64,000 nucleotides of DNA from Aurantiochytrium sp. KH105 (Eukaryota > Sar > Bigyra > Thraustochytrida > Thraustochytriidae). A program made the position numbers and the translations under genes. Under the pieces are notes generated by a model. The model saw only the letters and a program-made list of their open reading frames with translations. It was not told the origin of the DNA and made no database searches. Shown piece by piece: positions 51,202 through 62,920 of the stretch (position 1 is the stretch's first letter; every line of letters begins with the position of its first letter). The stretch spans positions 186,001 through 250,000 of the forward strand of contig BGKB01000006.1 of assembly GCA_003116975.1 (NCBI GenBank), read 5' to 3'.

Positions 51202-51356
51202 ATGCGCGAGCCGGACGAGAAGGGCGTCTCTGTGGCACGCAAGCGGCAGCGAGGTGATGTCGACGACGGCGACGCCTCCGTGAACGTCGCCGAGGGCGCC
51301 AAGAAACATTCCCGAAGCGAACGCGGCAAGGCCGATAGCAGCAGCAGTAGTAGTAG

Positions 51357-51387
<31 letters not shown>

Positions 51388-52746
51388 GACAGCGAGAGCA
51401 GAAAGGGCGCCAGCAGCAACAGCAGCAAACAGTCCGGCGGGGAAGATGACGGCGACTTTGTTGATTTCGACGAGTCGAAGATCACGAAAAAGACAGTGTA
51501 CAACAACAACAACAACAAGACGGGCTACTTCGAGGTCCAGGTCACGGACGGAACCAGCAACAAACTCGTCAAGTTTGGTTGCAAGCATTGTGAAGTAGTG
51601 CTGGAAACTGGCGAGGATATCGTCACACACATCGAAAAGGTTCACGGCTCGCACGGTACTGCCGAAGGTAGCGTGCGCTGTGTCATCTGCAATCGCTGCG
51701 TGCCAACACCGGCCGATCTCGAAAGACACTCGGCCGACATGCATCGTCGTGTCCGCAAGTACGGCTGTCTCACCTGCAAGAAACGATTTGAGCGCCTCGT
51801 CGATGTCCAACTGCACGTCGAGTCCATGCACGACGCTAACCGACGCCACAGATGTCCCGAGTGCGACAAAACCTTTGGTCGTGCTGGAGATCTCAAGCTG
51901 CACGTGCGCACTGTACATAAGGGGGAACGCCCGTACACGTGTCAGCACTGTGGGTCTACTTTTGGTTACCGGAACAATCTCAAGAAACACGTGGATACTG
52001 TTCACAAGGGCATTCGTCGATTCCAGTGCGATATATGCGGCAAGCGTTTTGGACGCAAGGACCACCTTTACCGCCACAGTGAGAATCGTGTTTGTCTTCT
52101 CGAGCGCTCCCGCCAAGAGCGCGAAACGGCCATGGCTCCTCCGCCTTCCGCGCCCGCCCACCTCGCCAGCCTACCACAAGAAACGGCGGCACTTTTGCAG
52201 GCCCAGGCACATTTACACTTCAGCAACACTGCAGCTTTCCTCGCCAGCAATGCGGCATCCATGCCGCACCGTTTTCCCAATGGACTCGGGACGCACGTTG
52301 CCAACCCGTCCTCGTTCATGTCCAACATGTTTCCTTTTGCCTGGCCTTCGGCGATGAATTCGCACCAGCATCAGCAGCATGCCCAGCTCGCTGACGCTCT
52401 GTCTTCTTCGCGCGAGAATAAGGGGACTAAGCCGACGGATTCAATGGTCGGGAGCAGCGCCCCTTCAAACGCGTCTCTTTCTTCTGATGAAAAGGACAGG
52501 GCCGCAGAGTCACTCGAAACTTCATCATCGGACCCGAGTAGCCTTCATGCCTACTACCAGCGTTTGCGTGGTCTCGATTCGCTGCAGCAGTCCGCTGCTG
52601 CAACTGCCGCCGCGTCCTCTGCTTCTGCTGGCGCTACTCCCCCTGCGACGGCTTCGGCCCGGGGGACGCATGCCAGCGGGGTGAGCGCCTTTGCAGGGAG
52701 TAATATGCCAGATCACCAGCAATCATTCCAGCAAATTTTCCAGCAG

Positions 52747-52782
<36 letters not shown>

Positions 52783-53136
52783 CCTGTGCCCTCTACCGTG
52801 GACGCCATCGCGTCCTGGGCCAAGTACGGTGGAGCTGCTCTTGGATACGGAGGATACCATGCGCATCTTCAGCAACAACAGCAACAGCAACAGCAACTGC
52901 AACAACAACCATCCGAGCCTCACCGGGGGGACTATATTCCGCAACGCGACCGAGATCTGTACCTGCACCAGTCCGCGATGGGCGGCCGCCCGCCGCACCT
53001 CTTTTCCGAAGCAGAGTCTCGAGGACAAAACCAGGAACGTCAGCCGCCGCGCGTACCTGGGAGAGAGCAACAACAGCAAGCAGCGTCAAATCTTGGCAGC
53101 GATGGTGTAGCAGACGACAAAGGCCAAGGCTGTTAA
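51202..53136 (+). CDS. C2H2 zinc finger protein with six fingers
   Basis: The first in-frame ATG gives 644 residues. A Ser run and an acidic stretch come first. Six fingers then run without long gaps: CKHC...HIEKVH, CVIC...HSADMH, CLTC...HVESMH, CPEC...HVRTVH, CQHC...HVDTVH, and a last one CDIC...HSENRVC in which the final His is replaced by Cys. Fingers 4-6 have the usual TFGRAGDLKLH form and HKGERPY-type linkers, so these likely bind DNA. The C-terminal half is Ala, Ser and Gln-rich with two Gln runs, typical of a transcription factor's activation region. The target is unknown. Confidence 0.88.
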
Positions 53137-53678: not shown

Positions 53679-54542
53679 ATGGCGCTGGCGGCGGTCTGCC
53701 GGAGACAGCTCAAGAGGTTGCTGCCGACAGCGCAAGGCAGACGAGGACTTGCAAGCACTGCCTCGTCATCAACAACGACGACGACGACAACGATAGAGAG
53801 TAAAGGAACAGGATCCCAGGCGAACCATGCACAGCGGTCCACGATCGATAGCGCAGAGGCAGCCAAGTTTGCCGGTATTGAATGGAGCGGCGAGGAGGGC
53901 CGCGCTCTTGAAGCTATGCACCAGACGCGCATGGGCGCACTGCGCAAGTATCTTGCCGAAAGACATGCTTGGGATCGTCTCGAAGGTCTTCGCGTCGCCG
54001 ACATTGGTTGCGGTGGTGGTCTTTTGTCTCAGTCCCTCGTCGAGCTTGGCGCCGACGTCGTCGCAATTGATGTCGCGCAAAGCAACGTCGAGTATACCTC
54101 GGCAAGGGTTGCCAAGATTGATCAGCCCACCGGTTCTTTCGAGGCCCGCTGCACCACCGCCGAAGATCTCTTTCGCGAGGAAGGGCCTCAGAGCTTTGAC
54201 ATGGTCGTGTCTCTCGAAGTTATTGAGCACGTCAGCGATCCCACTCTGTTTTTGCAATCTTGCGCGGACATGACGCGCAATGTCTTAGCCATTTCCACCC
54301 TTGATCGCTCCATTCGGAGCTATTTGCTTGCGATTGTCGCTGCAGAGCACGTCGCGCGCATGGTTCCTACGGGGACCCACGATTGGGCCAAGTTTGTGCA
54401 GCCTCGCGAAATCGAACACGTCATTCATCAGCGGGGCCTTCACACCGATGATGTCGTTGGCATGATTTACAATCCTCTCTTCAACTCTTGGCACACCACT
54501 CACGACACGAGCGTCAACTACATCCATTTCTCATCTCGCTAG
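53679..54542 (+). CDS. COQ3: Mitochondrial polyprenyl dihydroxybenzoate O-methyltransferase (COQ3/UbiG)
   Basis: The ATG at 53679 gives 287 residues. The first 45 are Arg/Ala/Ser/Thr-rich without acids, as in a mitochondrial presequence, and include a short ACG-coded Thr run. The core has the AdoMet motif VADIGCGGGLLSQSL (about 106-120), then VVAIDVAQSNV and the family segment MVVSLEVIEHVSDP. The later stretch STLDRSIRSYLLAIVAAEHV followed by VPTGTHDWAKFVQP is characteristic of UbiG/COQ3. It makes both O-methylations of ubiquinone synthesis on the inner membrane. Length and motifs are complete. Confidence 0.93.
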   Translation: MALAAVCRRQLKRLLPTAQGRRGLASTASSSTTTTTTTIESKGTGSQANHAQRSTIDSAEAAKFAGIEWSGEEGRALEAMHQTRMGALRKYLAERHAWDRLEGLRVADIGCGGGLLSQSLVELGADVVAIDVAQSNVEYTSARVAKIDQPTGSFEARCTTAEDLFREEGPQSFDMVVSLEVIEHVSDPTLFLQSCADMTRNVLAISTLDRSIRSYLLAIVAAEHVARMVPTGTHDWAKFVQPREIEHVIHQRGLHTDDVVGMIYNPLFNSWHTTHDTSVNYIHFSSR

Positions 54543-55252: not shown

Positions 55253-56335
55253 ATGGGCCGCATCCGAGGAAACGTGCAATATGTCGCGCAGTCGCTCGAG
55301 CTCGTGCTGGCTGTCTCTGGCGTGCCCAATGAGGCCATGCTTGGTCCCCGCGCCAACGACGTGACTCTACGCGCGTGGAGTAGAGACGGGTCTCTCGTCC
55401 TCGAGTTGAGAATGCCCAACGACGAGCCGGCCGACGCGGTGGCTGTGCAGGGCAAGCTCGCTGCTGTAGGAACCCGGGACGGCGACGTCTATCTCGTGAA
55501 CCTCCTTTCCGGGGCCGTCTTGCACTCGCTACAAGGTCATACGGGCTACATTCGAACCGTTGTCATTGAAGACGAGGTGGTGCTCTCGGGGTCTTCAGAC
55601 GGCACCATTCGCATTTGGGACAAGGCAAGCGGAGATTGCATCCAGACAATCCTCGCGGGCGGCGTCACAGTCTGCGGCCTTGCCACGCATGAAAATTTTG
55701 TCGTCGCTGGGCTTTACGATCAGGCCACTGGTGTGCGCGTCTTTGACCGTACTACGGGAAAGAAATGCCACGAACTCCACGACGCAACTGAAGAGGTGTT
55801 TTCCGTCGCGATGAACGGGCGCCACATGGTAAGCGCGTCTCGCGATCGAATGGTGAGGGTCTACGCTGTACCTTCCTTTGAGCTCGTTCACGTTCTTCAA
55901 GGACACAGTGACGTAGTGCATGCTGTCGCTCTCGAGGAGGACCTCGTCGTGAGTGGTTCCTACGACCACACAGTCAGAGTTTGGGACGCGATCAAGGGAG
56001 ACCAGCTGCACGTCTTGCTCGGTCATTCTGGCCGCGTCTTGTCTGTCTCCCTTCGCGGAGTTGAGATTGTGAGTGGGTCAGCTGACAAGAATGTTCGCGT
56101 CTGGAATGCAAACACCGGCGCACTAGAACACGTCTTGTCAGGGGGAGAGCACCGGACTCCCATTTCAAAAGTGCTTGCACCAGAAAGGAGAACGCACGTT
56201 ACGACCGGATCGAGACTTTCCTCGCTGTTTACATCTTCTGTTCGCCTCTCCACAGCAACGAGCATCCTCGACGACCAGCACCTTGATGAGGGCGAGACCA
56301 AAACACGTAAGACCTGGAGCTGCGCGGTTCAATAA
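55253..56335 (+). CDS. WD40 repeat protein with C-terminal CaaX box
   Basis: The first in-frame ATG gives 360 residues. About seven WD40 blades are visible, with units such as LQGHTGYIRTVVIEDEVVLS and SDGTIRIWDKASGDC, then GHSDVVHAV...YDHTVRVWDA and GHSGRVLSV...ADKNVRVWNA. After the propeller is a linker of about 50 residues. The last four residues are CAVQ, a CaaX motif of the type farnesyltransferase prefers. That would tether the propeller to a membrane. The TAA stop overlaps an AATAAA signal (56332-56337). The closest relative is the next gene, which lies 373 bp downstream in the same orientation. Confidence 0.85.
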   Translation: MGRIRGNVQYVAQSLELVLAVSGVPNEAMLGPRANDVTLRAWSRDGSLVLELRMPNDEPADAVAVQGKLAAVGTRDGDVYLVNLLSGAVLHSLQGHTGYIRTVVIEDEVVLSGSSDGTIRIWDKASGDCIQTILAGGVTVCGLATHENFVVAGLYDQATGVRVFDRTTGKKCHELHDATEEVFSVAMNGRHMVSASRDRMVRVYAVPSFELVHVLQGHSDVVHAVALEEDLVVSGSYDHTVRVWDAIKGDQLHVLLGHSGRVLSVSLRGVEIVSGSADKNVRVWNANTGALEHVLSGGEHRTPISKVLAPERRTHVTTGSRLSSLFTSSVRLSTATSILDDQHLDEGETKTRKTWSCAVQ

Positions 56336-56708
56336 AAAATCCTAGCGCATGTGACCGACTTGTTCTGCATCGCTTCTTTCTGTCTGCTGCAGCTCGCGCT
56401 GGTGCGCGGCATGACTCGTTGTCTTTCTTCTTCTGAAAAATTGTTTGTTTCTCTTGTTGTTTCTCTTTTTTCGTTTCGAAGCGTTTTTATTCGCTCTTTC
56501 GTTGTACAGTTTTCTTTGCGCACGTGCACAGGATTTTCATCCCCAATCACAGGTTTCGTCGTCGTTGCAGCGCTCAGAGAGGCATTTGACCCCCAAAGTT
56601 TCCGATCTGAAATTTGTCGCGATGCCAAGCTCAAGGCACGAAAAAAGGAATCGTAATAAAGAGCAGATTCCTCACTAACTCGCTCTCACGGTGAGACGAA
56701 CATTCGCC

Positions 56709-58634
56709 ATGGGCCGCTTCAATGACTCAGTGTGGAGTGTCGCCCAGTCTGCGGACCTTATCCTAGCTGCCACCAGGAATGACGCGTCTGTGCGCGCGTG
56801 GAGTAAAGATGGCCGCGCCCTGGTCGTGGACCTCAAGATGCCCCAGAAAACCTCCTCTGTGGCCCTTCAGGGCACGCTAGCCGCCATCGGAACGCAGCGC
56901 GGGGGGCTCTTTCTCGTGGACCTGCTCACGTCCGCCATTCTCCACTCTCTGCAAGGCCACACCGAAAAGGTCTGCACCCTCGTTCTCCGCGGCACGGAGG
57001 TCTTTTCGGGGTCGCTGGACGCAACCATTCGGGCCTGGAACATCGTCACTGGCACGTGCTCCAAGACGATATCCGCCGGCGCACGGGTCGCGGGGCTTGC
57101 CGTCCAGAATGACACAATCGTTGCTGGGCTAGACGACCACACCGTACCCGTCTTCGATCGAGCCAGCGGCGAGCAGCGCCATGTCCTCACCGAGGCGAAA
57201 GCGGCCGTCACCTCGGTCGCGTTGGACGCAAAGCGCTTGGTGAGCGGGGCCGCCGACAATTATGCAAGGGTGTACGCCGTGCCTTCTTACGAGCTCGTCC
57301 ATGTGCTCAAAGGACACACGCACGTGGTGGCATCTGTTTCGCTCCAAGATAATCGCATCGTGAGCGGATCACACGATAAATCGATCCGAGTTTGGGACGC
57401 GCAAAACGGAGACCTAGTGCACGTATTGCAAGGCGACGCAGGCTCGGTGCTGACGGTTAATCTTTTGGGGTCAGAAATTACGAGCGGGTCAGAGGACAGC
57501 TGCGTCCAAATCTGGGAGGCAACGACGGGCGCATTAAAGTGCACGCTTCGTGGGGGGGAGCGTCGTTGCAAAATCGACTCGGTGCTTCCTCGGCCCGAGA
57601 GGTTGCCAAATGTGGACCATTTTGCCGTCAGGGGCCACATGGGATGTGTGTATGGTGTGACTCAGTCCACAGAACTCGTTCTAGCCTGCTCCGATGACGC
57701 GTGTTTGCGCGCTTGGAGCAAAGACGGCGCTCTCGTTCTCGCGATGAAAATGCCAAACAATCGCTATGCTGTTTGTGCGGCTGTGCAGGGTCATTTGGCC
57801 GCCGTATCAACCTTTTACACAGGCCTGTATCTCATTGATCTCTTCTCAGGTGCCATTCTGCAGCTTCATGGCCACGCAGGCAACGTCCGAAGCCTTCTTA
57901 TCGATAACGACGTTGTACTCACAGGATCCGAAGATAAAACCATTCGTGTTTGGGACACCTCAAGCGGTGCGTGCATCAAGACAATATCTACTGTGGCACT
58001 CATTATGGATATGGCTGTTCATGGAAATCTGATTGCGGCTGGCCTGCTTGACAATACTTTGCGTGTCTTTGACCGAGTCAGTGGTGCCCAGCGTCACGTT
58101 CTCACCGAGGCGACAGAGTTGGTGAGATCGGTTGCGATCGACGCACACCGCTTGGTAAGCGGCGCCGACGACAGTATCATTCGAATATACACCGTGCCCA
58201 GCTTTCAACTCATCCGAGCGTTTCAAGGGCATGTCGGATGGGTCACGTCCATCGCACTCGAGGGAGATTGTATCGTAACAGGTTCAAACGACATGAAGCT
58301 CAAAGTTTGGGATGCGGAAAACGGGAAACTACTGCACGAACCTCAAGGCCACAAGAGTGTAGTGACGTCGGTTTCTCTCTTGGCATCAGAAATCGTCAGC
58401 GGATCTCATGACTCGTCCGTGCGAATTTGGAACGCTGAGACGGGTGTCCTGACAAGGACGCTCGTTGGCACCGAGTCCACTCGGCACATTGCGGAGGTGT
58501 TTGGAGATGATTCTGCAAGGATTACAGCGGCATGGCCTACGTTGCAGCCTCCCCAGACACCACCAAAACCACGAGGATGGCACGTCTTCAAGGCTGCAAA
58601 CATGCCGAAACAAGAGCGCTGCACACTCTTGTGA
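56709..58634 (+). CDS. Double WD40 propeller protein with C-terminal CTLL prenylation box
   Basis: The ATG at 56709 (MGRFNDSVWSV) gives 641 residues. It contains two copies, back to back, of the unit seen in the preceding gene: residues about 1-305 and 306-600. Matching landmarks are RAWSKDG, LHSLQGH or LQLHGH, VFDRASG or VFDRVSG, RHVLTEA, and YAVPSYELVHVLKGH or YTVPSFQLIRAFQGH. It should form two seven-bladed propellers. The C-terminus ends CTLL, a CaaX form with final Leu that geranylgeranyltransferase I prefers. The gene therefore arose by duplication of the neighbouring gene followed by internal duplication or fusion. The function is unknown; membrane-attached scaffolding is inferred. Confidence 0.88.
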   Translation: MGRFNDSVWSVAQSADLILAATRNDASVRAWSKDGRALVVDLKMPQKTSSVALQGTLAAIGTQRGGLFLVDLLTSAILHSLQGHTEKVCTLVLRGTEVFSGSLDATIRAWNIVTGTCSKTISAGARVAGLAVQNDTIVAGLDDHTVPVFDRASGEQRHVLTEAKAAVTSVALDAKRLVSGAADNYARVYAVPSYELVHVLKGHTHVVASVSLQDNRIVSGSHDKSIRVWDAQNGDLVHVLQGDAGSVLTVNLLGSEITSGSEDSCVQIWEATTGALKCTLRGGERRCKIDSVLPRPERLPNVDHFAVRGHMGCVYGVTQSTELVLACSDDACLRAWSKDGALVLAMKMPNNRYAVCAAVQGHLAAVSTFYTGLYLIDLFSGAILQLHGHAGNVRSLLIDNDVVLTGSEDKTIRVWDTSSGACIKTISTVALIMDMAVHGNLIAAGLLDNTLRVFDRVSGAQRHVLTEATELVRSVAIDAHRLVSGADDSIIRIYTVPSFQLIRAFQGHVGWVTSIALEGDCIVTGSNDMKLKVWDAENGKLLHEPQGHKSVVTSVSLLASEIVSGSHDSSVRIWNAETGVLTRTLVGTESTRHIAEVFGDDSARITAAWPTLQPPQTPPKPRGWHVFKAANMPKQERCTLL

Positions 58635-59836: not shown

Positions 59837-62249
59837 ATGTCGAACGGGTACAACAACAACTACGGGTACCAGGACCAGGGGTACGGAGGCGGGTACAATC
59901 AAGGGTACCAGCAGGTCCCGGAGCTTGAGCATGACCAGCAGCAAGCGCACGGCCACCATCACAACCAGTACGCGCACGACGCGGCACCAGCAAATGGGTC
60001 TTCTCATCATCAGCAGCATGACCAACATGGCTATTACGACAGCGGCGCGCCCGAAGAAGCACCTGGCGATAGCGGCCACTACGGATCGCAGTCCTATGCG
60101 CAGGGAGACTATTATGCGCAGCCCCAACGCACACATGCACCGCAGCCCTCTCCCCGGAATGCCGGTCATCATCCGAACGCGGCGTCGGGATCGGGGTCGA
60201 ACGCGTACGCTTCGTCTCATGTCTCGGGTTATAGCGCTGCAACAGACTCACACATGTCGTCGTACTCGGCAGGCTCGTATGAGTCGTCGAAAGGCGCACA
60301 TCTCCACGGTGGCTCTTCTTCGAGACAGCCCTCGTCGCAGTCGCAAGCGCGGCAGCAGCATCCTCCGCAGTCTCAACAGCCTCAGCAGCAACAGCAACAT
60401 CACCAGCAGCAACAGCAACCAGGGTATCACCATCGTACCCAGACATCCCGGAGTCAATACCCGGCTGCGCCAAACCAAACGCGGGAGACAGGCGCATATC
60501 CCGCAAGTGCGCAGCCTCGTCAAGCAAGTCGACCATCTCAGCAGCAGCAGCAACAGCGGCAACAGCCATCGCAACCGCAACAGCAGCCACAACGACAATC
60601 GCATCCGCAGTCTACGTCTCGACAAAGCGCTTCGCAAGGCGACTATCGGGGTGGGCCTTCTGCTGCTTCGCATGGTCAGTATGGACACCACACTCATCAC
60701 TCGCAGCAGTCTTCGCAGCAGCCTTCGCAGCAATCTATACCGCCGCCGCAGCAACAGCAGCAGCAGCAGCAGCAGCAGCAACCGCCTCCGCAGCAGCAAC
60801 AACAACAACAGTATTCGCAACGGCAGTCAGCACCGCAGCAACAGCAACAGCAGCAACAACAAAAACAACAAAAACAACGACCACAAGATAGCAGTGTTTC
60901 ACGACCTGCATCGAACGATCCACGAATGAGAAATCCGTCCGGCTCGTCTGGCCGCGTGAGCTCCACGCAAGTTCGCCGGTCTTGCACGCAGAATCTGCTT
61001 CTTAGTGTCTTGAACCTGCAAAAAGCTACACTCCGAATTAAAGAGAAGCGCGATCTGACCAAGGAAGAATACGAAAAGCTCAAACAACAGGTGATGACCT
61101 ACGAAAAGGATCAGTACGACAAATACCTCATGCAGCAGGATCGCCAGGGCTATGAGCAAGCGTTCAACACGAAGATTAGCGTGCTCAAGCGCAAGACCCA
61201 ATACATGGTCGGTATGGTCAAACTTCAGCAATATGTTCATGGCTTAAAGTCAGCCGTCCGCCACTACGTAGCATGTCTAGATCGGGTTCCCAACGACCGC
61301 GAAAAGCGAGTCCACTACAAGGCGAAGATTGAGGAGTTTCAAAGTTACATTGCGGACATTGAAAATCCCACAAAGTTTCATCCCAACCTGACTGACCACT
61401 ACTTGAAAGTCCGGGCAGTTGTCAGTACCGTGATCAAGTCGCTTCGCAGCAGCAACAAGCAGAGGCAGCGGCAGCAGCAGCAGCAACAACAACAACAAGA
61501 AACTTCGGCAGGATCGGAGGCTCGACCTTCTCCTCATATGCACGCGTCTGCAGCCTCGCAGCCTTCGCAGCAACGGGCTCGATCGAGTGCGAGTCTCGAC
61601 CCAGAAGGAACGCGCACGGCTCCGCCGGGCTCAAGCGGCGGACGTGGCTCGGGGGTAGCTCCTGCGAGGCCACACATGCCTCACGGGCCCACGTCGGGAG
61701 CTCCGCAGGATTACCGCGGGACACAGTCTTCGCAGACGCCACAACAAGGCCAACAGCCACAAGCAGCACAAGGGAGCCAGGCATATTCAGTGCCGCGTGG
61801 TGCTGCGGAAGCTCAAGCTTACGCAGCTTCTCGTGTTACTCAGCCAAATGCATCTGGCCCGCATGCGGTGAGTCCCACGCACGCCATGGGCTCCCAGCCG
61901 TATCAGCGGCCAGGTGGAACAAGTGCACCTCCACCGCACGCGCAAGGTACCTCGCCACAGCAGCGACCGCCGCAGCAGCAGCAACAACAGCGGCAACAAC
62001 AGCGGCAACAACAGCTGCAGCAGCAGCGCTATCTGCAGCAGCAGCAGCAGGAACAAAAGCGTAAGCAACAACAGCAGCTTTTGAAGCAGAAACAGCTCGA
62101 AGAGCAAAAGAAGAAGGAGCAAATCGAGAAACAGAAAAAATTGGAACTCGAGCGGCGCAAGGCGGAGGAGCAGCAGCGTAAATTAGCCGAGCAAAAGCGA
62201 CTTGAAGCGCAACAGCGTCAGCAACAACTCCGGCAGCAGCAACAGCAGC

Positions 62250-62313
<64 letters not shown>

Positions 62314-62920
62314 GAAGTTGCAGCGACAGCAGCAATTGCAGCAGCAGCAACAGCAGCGAGCCATGGCGCGGCAGTCTTCGCAGTCTTCCACTGCGGCACC
62401 TGCTCCATCTATGCGGAATGCCAGCGCTGCAACACCCCCACATGCCCATCCTCCTGTGGGTCCTGCTGGTGCACGAACTCCTATTCCATCCAAACCCGGA
62501 TCAGGACCCAGCGTGCATCATCATCAACAACAACAACAACCGTCTCCATCGTCAAAGCGCCCCGCGCCCCAGCAGCAAGTGGCGCCTGCAAAGCGGCTCA
62601 AAGTAGAACCCATGCCTAAGGGCAGTCCCGCGCCGTCTGTGCCTCCGAAGCAGCAAAAGCCGCCGCAGCAACAGCAACAACAAGACACGCCCAAGCCCAC
62701 CAAACCTCCTTCATCGTCGACGCCAAAGCAGTCAGCGAACGTCAAAAAGGAGGGAGCTGGAGCAACCAAGGCAAAGGCCCCCAAGGAGCCGCCTGCTCCC
62801 TCCATGTTTGGGCCTGGCGTCTCCTCGATTGTCAAGGGTCTGCCTTTTGCCAAGGCCGATCTCACTGCATGCAAAGATGCCTGCACGCGGCTCACTCGCG
62901 CATTTACAGCGTGGGCTTGA
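59837..62920 (+). CDS. Gln-rich protein, possible transcription cofactor
   Basis: The first in-frame ATG gives 1027 residues. Residues 1-370 are Gln, Ser, His and Tyr-rich with an early Gly/Tyr/Asn segment (NNNYGYQDQGYGGGYNQGY). A single folded part lies at about 380-540: charged helices including LLLSVLNLQKATLRIKEKRD and TYEKDQYDKYLMQQDRQGYE. After it come more Gln-rich tracts, a charged coiled coil (about 740-800), a run of 27 Gln at 62234-62314 coded mainly by CAA, and a basic Pro-rich stretch. The C-terminus is better mixed (FGPGVSSIVKGLPFAKADLT). Gln/Tyr richness fits nuclear or condensate-forming cofactors. I do not recognise the folded region. Confidence 0.75.
62234..62314 (+). repeat. 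CAA/CAG tract encoding 27 Gln
   Basis: The run begins with mixed CAG/CAA and becomes an uninterrupted CAA series before ending in CAG. It lies inside the Gln-rich gene. Confidence 0.9.

Follow-up and report, generated by a model that had tools for sequence, protein, structure and literature searches.

The window analysed here is a stretch of 64,000 nucleotides from the thraustochytrid Aurantiochytrium sp. KH105 (contig BGKB01000006.1 of assembly GCA_003116975.1; C6:186001-250000), and it contains two adjacent genes, which we call P1 and P2, for WD40 proteins that end in CaaX boxes of the prenylation type. Both frames are open on the plus strand where the original prediction had placed them, and the CAVQ and CTLL ends that it had read exactly at the stop codons were confirmed. 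The features of the pair, in window positions, are the following.

55253..56335, plus strand: P1, a single WD40 propeller protein of 360 residues with C-terminus CAVQ (farnesyltransferase-type box); open frame, WD40 domain matches, allele L010
56300..56317, plus strand: basic stretch KTRKTW preceding the P1 box; read from the sequence, KRRKTW in the allele
56321..56332, plus strand: CAVQ codons of P1, followed by the stop TAA (56333-56335); read from the sequence, also in L010
56709..58634, plus strand: P2, a fused double WD40 propeller protein of 641 residues with C-terminus CTLL (geranylgeranyltransferase I-type box); open frame, WD40 matches over both halves, allele L040
56709..57608, plus strand: first propeller of P2 (end approximate), from alignment to P1
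57609..58500, plus strand: second propeller of P2 (ends approximate), from alignment to P1
58620..58631, plus strand: CTLL codons of P2, followed by the stop TGA (58632-58634); read from the sequence, also in L040

Two adjacent WD40 genes and their second haplotype

P1 (MGRIRGNV...KTRKTWSCAVQ) and P2 (MGRFNDSV...MPKQERCTLL) lie head to tail in that order, with 373 bases between them. Their membership of the WD40 family is clear from PF00400 scores of 92.4 bits for P1 and 156.2 bits for P2 at a cut-off of 27, and the identity of the two parts of P2 to P1 in the alignment (52% and 47%) identifies P2 as a fusion of two propellers (P2a and P2b). No Roc or COR domain was found in either protein among the best 25 of 41 and of 42 Pfam families, and COR-A and TIR_2 profile searches of the assembly listed no match near the pair (C6:241253-244631). 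A basic stretch before a CaaX box can serve as a second membrane signal, as in K-Ras, and it is possible that KTRKTW plays this part in P1.

Contig C15 carries a second copy of both genes (L010 and L040), 91-96% identical in DNA over the genes and their flanks. The low-copy gene families that were searched, those of the prenylation enzymes, occur in pairs as well, and the whole assembly (76 Mb in 367 contigs) behaves like a diploid one. The C15 copies keep the ends CAVQ and CTLL, with cysteine at position -4 and an aliphatic residue at -2 in both haplotypes. Between P1 and L010 we counted 18 synonymous and 4 nonsynonymous codon differences in the WD40 part, and between the first propeller of P2 and its allele 9 synonymous and 17 nonsynonymous ones; P2, whose product is 95% identical to that of L040, is therefore less constrained or still changing. 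The long stop-free frames suggest that introns are few.

Receptor and stand-alone relatives in the same genome

Searches of the genome with P1 and P2 revealed a large family of related propellers for which all counts are lower bounds, since 113 of 559 candidates were scored. Among the listed matches of at least 170 bits, the same propeller is carried by 46 frames of 1,123 to 1,369 residues, all of which match COR-A and 45 of which match TIR_2 when domain matches are assigned to the long frames by contig and frame length; the frame without a TIR_2 match, on C58, is out of frame near its end (L099). A full-length example (L016+L101), 1,096 residues from the first propeller methionine, combines WD40 repeats with Roc (2.4e-21; tested in this one receptor), COR-A (1.2e-12) and TIR_2 (1.5e-11). 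Its centre matched 4wnr (a leucine-rich-repeat protein; 2.5e-18), LRRK2 Roc domains and 3dpu in a PDB sequence search, 4wnr and 3dpu being presumably bacterial Roco proteins, and its TIR region matched solved TIR domains weakly (E 0.04-0.1). With COR-A in all 46 and both Roc and COR-A in L016, the long paralogues are ROCO proteins. They also combine sensor repeats, a nucleotide switch and an immune-type effector in the manner of NLRs, a likeness of layout only, since Roc serves as the switch in place of NB-ARC or NACHT. By their sequences, P1 and P2 are relatives of these ROCO receptors and not ROCO proteins themselves.

C-terminal tails were read for 20 of the 46 long frames (L099-L118). Eighteen end in an ordinary TIR domain and two, L099 and L112, deviate; 18 of the 20 have a Glu in the motif MEL, at what we take to be about the position of the catalytic Glu of TIR NADases. 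Since a cysteine at -4 occurs in none of the 20 tails, the idea that the receptors themselves carry CaaX boxes was set aside for the tails read.

COR-A has 124 matches in the diploid assembly, 116 of them above the cut-off. For TIR_2 there are at least 150 (150 of 258 candidates scored), which together with the 124 COR-A matches makes a very large TIR and ROCO repertoire. A second ROCO-TIR class consists of frames of about 870-1,000 residues. At C51:44947-48042 (minus strand), and also on C123, C68 and C21, frames of about 1,500 residues have a TIR match N-terminal of several WD40 matches, an arrangement that recalls NLRs of the HET-E type.

The stand-alone members were surveyed by reading tails at 42 places outside the long receptor frames (P1, P2 and sets of 11 and 29 loci), which are all the listed non-receptor matches of at least 165 bits except C9:493839, a 1,030-residue frame with a stop. 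Nine places were excluded as broken receptors or receptor pieces (L022, L038, L054, L071, L072, L074, L086, L094 and L095, with L074 among them because its end runs into undetermined bases). A Cys-x-aliphatic-x end, with cysteine exactly at -4 and I, L or V at -2, is present at 20 of the 33 complete places and, after merging of allele-like pairs, at 14 of 21 loci; among the 14, a few may be alleles of each other (L070/L076, L034/L073). The ends of the boxed loci are CAVQ (P1), CTLL (P2), CSIL (L011, L029, L034, L070, L076), CSIQ (L069), CLIL (L073 and L087, the latter with partner L089 CLVL), CSII (L080), CALL (L092), CILQ (L075) and CTLS (L096). By tail-sequence type the box occurs in 8 of 15, all eight with an aliphatic residue at -2, and over the 21 merged loci the cysteine counts at positions -1 to -14 (0,0,1,14,4,0,4,1,0,1,0,0,0,0) peak at -4. 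Because the P1 and P2 boxes do not differ between the haplotypes and such boxes recur in paralogues that have diverged, selection on the terminal cysteine, which the original prediction had proposed, is likely. Several tails have extra cysteines or basic residues just upstream of the box (CPTCSIL, LFCCALL, ASCCTLS, KTRKTWSCAVQ), and residues of this kind beside a box can act as second membrane signals.

If the stand-alone genes were truncated receptors, their boxes could be random tails that happen to end in the right way. Some members do look like receptor remnants, namely L013/L014 and L088, whose tails resemble an inner stretch of the receptors by eye; L013 is followed, at a distance of about 1.5 kb, by a TIR match. 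The genome also contains several broken receptors. These recognisable remnants, however, are without a box, and the remnant explanation does not fit the five other non-boxed types (L077, L079, L082, L084, L090 and partners), whose ends are unrelated. The binomial chance of finding cysteine at -4 in at least eight of 15 tail types is 1.5e-10 at 2% cysteine and 3.5e-9 at 3%, a calculation that is generous in treating the types as independent (cysteine content is 1.1% in P1 and 1.9% in P2). P1 and P2 moreover have intact alleles, and neither effector-side profile has a match listed close to them. Chance or decay is thus a highly improbable origin for the boxes, and we rejected it on the cysteine peak at -4 and the intact alleles.

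Three of the surveyed loci deserve separate mention. The L013 locus (C5:448411-451126, minus strand), a WD40 frame that ends in the receptor-like inner stretch and is followed further on by a separate TIR match, is probably a decayed receptor. L075 (C18:100700-101600) is a stand-alone WD40 gene in which CILQ is preceded by a very long linker rich in Glu, and at L074 (C73:323000-323900) undetermined bases lie inside the acidic run.

As a rule, a C-terminal Q or S in a CaaX box leads to farnesylation, and L or I to geranylgeranylation. The farnesyl half of this rule is stated in PMC8930991. The mixture of farnesyl-type (Q, S) and geranylgeranyl-type (L, I) ends first noted in P1 and P2 recurs in the family: contig C259 carries a second head-to-tail pair, L069 (CSIQ) followed by L070 (CSIL), and the Q-then-L order is common to the two pairs, in two cases only.

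Genes resembling those for CaaX prenyltransferases, Rce1 and ICMT are encoded by the host. Prenyltransferase beta-subunit matches lie on six contigs, read as three loci with two alleles each, and none of 14 control genomes has a match; as a set, the three loci would fit farnesyltransferase, geranylgeranyltransferase I and Rab geranylgeranyltransferase. The PPTA repeats of the alpha subunit gave one locus pair above the cut-off and a second, weaker pair. One Rce1-like pair and one ICMT pair were found, and these are weaker evidence, domain matches and not proof of CaaX processing, because their models also match prokaryote controls (11 of 14 for Rce1 and 5 of 14 for ICMT).

Variable positions and relationships of the propellers

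Across 33 receptor propellers, variation is concentrated at a few positions per blade. In blades 3-7 the variable positions follow a 2-14-2 spacing, on either side of the V of GHxxxV and of the D of SxDxT; the pattern is less regular in blades 1-2. For a set of 28 such positions, compared across 29 receptor propellers after removal of four allele copies, the ratio of nonsynonymous to synonymous differences per site (pN/pS) is 1.9 (bootstrap 1.73-2.15), as against 0.54 elsewhere. In HET-E of Podospora, four positively selected codons (7, 9, 25 and 27) likewise lie to either side of the conserved codons 8 and 26, and they sit on the interaction face of the modelled propeller (PMC1805685). We took our propeller geometry, and the place of the variable residues in it, from sequence register and from this published model.

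An independent check on the variable positions is provided by three boxed stand-alone members, L011, L029 and L034, which were not used to choose them. Every pair within this trio differs at 24 of the 28 positions, and the pairs differ at 52, 36 and 53 of the 242 other positions. Compared with the receptor consensus at the 28 positions, P1 differs at 24, P2a at 27 and P2b at 23.

These patterns bear on the view that the pair are prenylated WD40 scaffolds with no part in immunity, adaptors for ordinary membrane traffic or signalling whose likeness to the TIR receptors reflects shared propeller ancestry and nothing else. It would agree with the divergence of both proteins from the receptor propellers, with the apparent conservation of P1 between haplotypes and with the precedent of WDR72, a known WD40 protein that needs its terminal CKVS for Golgi location (PMC8930991). 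Stand-alone members of the CSIL type nevertheless vary at the receptor-variable positions, which is not expected of a generic scaffold, and we regard this view as rather unlikely.

In the propeller tree the boxed propellers are intermingled with those of the receptors. The first tree, with 14 stand-alone propellers among 48 rows, needs 6 label changes, of which well-supported branches force at least 3. Support is weak for many branches, and P1, P2 and a number of other rows sit on long ones, so we put little weight on conclusions from the trees. Interleaving would also be compatible with an arrangement like that of the isoprenylated heavy-metal-associated (HMA) proteins of plants (HIPPs) and integrated HMA domains, in which the stand-alone prenylated propellers would be the original host targets of pathogen attack and a copy of the propeller would serve the receptors as bait. 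Rice offers the parallel of an isoprenylated stand-alone domain with a receptor-integrated copy (PMC11611257). The many differing variable faces fit a sensor rather than a bait that mimics one host protein, though, and the 46 receptor frames outnumber the 20 boxed places; we consider such a guarded target or decoy improbable.

A possible role as membrane-tethered sensors

Our preferred reading, which we think probable though by a distance not assured, is that P1 and P2 are prenylated, membrane-tethered, effector-less WD40 sensors related to the NLR-like receptors, and that they serve as sensor, co-receptor or decoy. The scaffold pair of the original prediction is too narrow a description, the commonest form of this genome-wide family being a WD40-Roc-COR-TIR receptor whose ligand face is hypervariable. 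Because the family has such a form, we favour the role of a sensor, co-receptor or decoy over that of a generic scaffold, and the family as a whole, whose other members resemble innate-immune receptors, may have an immune role.

According to this reading, one hypervariable propeller type would exist in two forms: receptors of the WD40-Roc-COR-TIR type, and stand-alone propellers without an effector, most of whose tail types have a CaaX box at the C-terminus in its place. In the receptor form, binding of a ligand to the propeller would be relayed by the Ras-like GTPase to the TIR effector, in NLR-like fashion. In the stand-alone form, CAVQ of P1 would be farnesylated and CTLL of P2 geranylgeranylated after synthesis, with trimming by Rce1 and then methylation by ICMT, so that the lipid box would pin the propeller to an inner membrane or the plasma membrane, where the linker and a tail with basic residues or extra cysteines would help to hold it. 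The tethered propeller may bind its ligand, perhaps of non-self origin, at the membrane, and might then recruit, prime or oligomerise with a TIR receptor bearing a similar propeller, as a co-receptor, or compete with it, as a decoy.

A number of observations count against the reading of P1 and P2 as effector-less sensors. The expectation that relatives would keep the terminal cysteine, checked in paralogues of the same genome, was borne out in the alleles and at the 20 boxed places and failed at the other 13 of the 33 complete ones; L074, the allele partner of the boxed L075, has lost its readable end; and tails of shared descent are not independent evidence. The 28 positions behind the pN/pS comparison were chosen from the same receptor rows, and pS is also higher there (0.30 vs 0.12), which may reflect multiple hits or exchange. 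Outside the variable positions P1 differs from the receptor consensus at 96 of 258 positions, P2a at 109 of 269 and P2b at 101 of 268 (37-41%), and because of this divergence a receptor-like function is less sure for P1 and P2 than for the CSIL members. In seven allele pairs the hypervariable positions have no excess of changes (0 to 3 nonsynonymous ones per 28 codons), so the diversity lies between loci and not between the two haplotypes compared. The variable face thus gave no sign of allelic diversification in these pairs, which speaks against a simple allorecognition reading. Finally, a single origin of the boxed propellers was rejected: ten boxed rows, a group picked after the first tree and leaving out L120 and P2b, do not form one clade in the approximately unbiased (AU) test (p 0.007), and this suggests that the box was gained more than once or that propellers were exchanged between genes or tails by gene conversion. 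A single clade of the four CSIL rows was not rejected (p 0.27).

A broader proposal, to which we would give only tentative credence, is that this unicellular marine protist has, in its germ line, a large set of hypervariable, immune-like WD40 sensors that come as two matched forms, WD40-Roc-COR-TIR executioners and prenylated effector-less propellers that present a variable face of the same kind on membranes, with farnesyl/geranylgeranyl tandem pairs posting each specificity to different membranes. If this were true, a single-celled lineage would have evolved NLR-like recognition on a Roc-COR switch with a HET-E-like hypervariable propeller face, and would have split the sensor from the effector by giving it a lipid anchor of its own. 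Recognition of viruses or other cells by such protists, and the sorting of immune sensors by lipid type, would then become testable.

Each ingredient of this proposal is already known. The NACHT-WD40 NLRs HET-E and HET-D of Podospora share the WD40 family and the four selected codons per repeat, and in our receptors the same conserved residues are flanked in blades 3-7; HET-E differs in having a NACHT switch and highly alike recombining repeats where the receptors here have Roc-COR and a C-terminal TIR domain (PMC1805685). P1 and P2 differ from it further, having neither switch nor effector and a CaaX box instead. The ROCO candidate immune receptors of brown algae and the TPR-ROCO-TIR protein of Chondrus likewise combine a Roc-COR switch with repeats that form the sensor and are under diversifying selection, can have TIR attached and have repeat-only relatives beside the receptors, whereas their sensors are leucine-rich or tetratricopeptide repeats (TPR) and not WD40 (PMC11378527). 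The same source gives at most four ROCO copies per species in several SAR species including Schizochytrium aggregatum, as against the 124 COR-A matches in the diploid assembly here, and the term 'prenyl' is absent from its main text.

Human WDR72, also a WD40 protein, ends in CKVS and depends on this terminal Cys box for its membrane location; the account in PMC8930991 does not place it in a hypervariable family that includes receptors. In OAS1 p46 a CaaX box puts an immune-related protein at membranes and is needed for its antiviral action (PMC10683996), and HIPPs have a domain in common with receptor-integrated copies (PMC11611257). Both differ from the proteins studied here in having unrelated folds, OAS1 being an enzyme and HIPPs small HMA-domain proteins. 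In the open-licence literature, by titles and the starts of abstracts, we found no hypervariable WD40 family with both a Roc-COR-TIR form and a prenylation-type effector-less form. Searches of the same literature for ROCO proteins or TIR domains in Labyrinthulomycetes yielded no paper. Those for thraustochytrids together with WD40 and TIR brought up two papers in which WD40 and TIR are seldom mentioned, and the papers retrieved for thraustochytrid immune receptors were, by title, on other subjects.

Other features of the window include a C2H2 zinc finger protein (51262-53136), a methyltransferase gene (53742-54542; Methyltransf_11, 1.7e-14) that may resemble UbiG/COQ3, a tandem repeat of 89 bases in 2.9 copies downstream of P2 (59042-59298) and a Gln-rich frame of 1,027 residues with no Pfam match (59837-62920). 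Elsewhere in the assembly, a PfaA-type polyunsaturated fatty acid synthase was matched in two parts (930 and 456 bits, cut-off 1010). Such a synthase is in keeping with a thraustochytrid (Labyrinthulomycetes), but as a pointer it is weak, because 11 of 14 control genomes also gave sub-cut-off matches to the model. On C61 and C290, the CTLS-ended WD40 gene lies about 2.5 kb from a part of a PfaA-like synthase that is truncated by the contig end.

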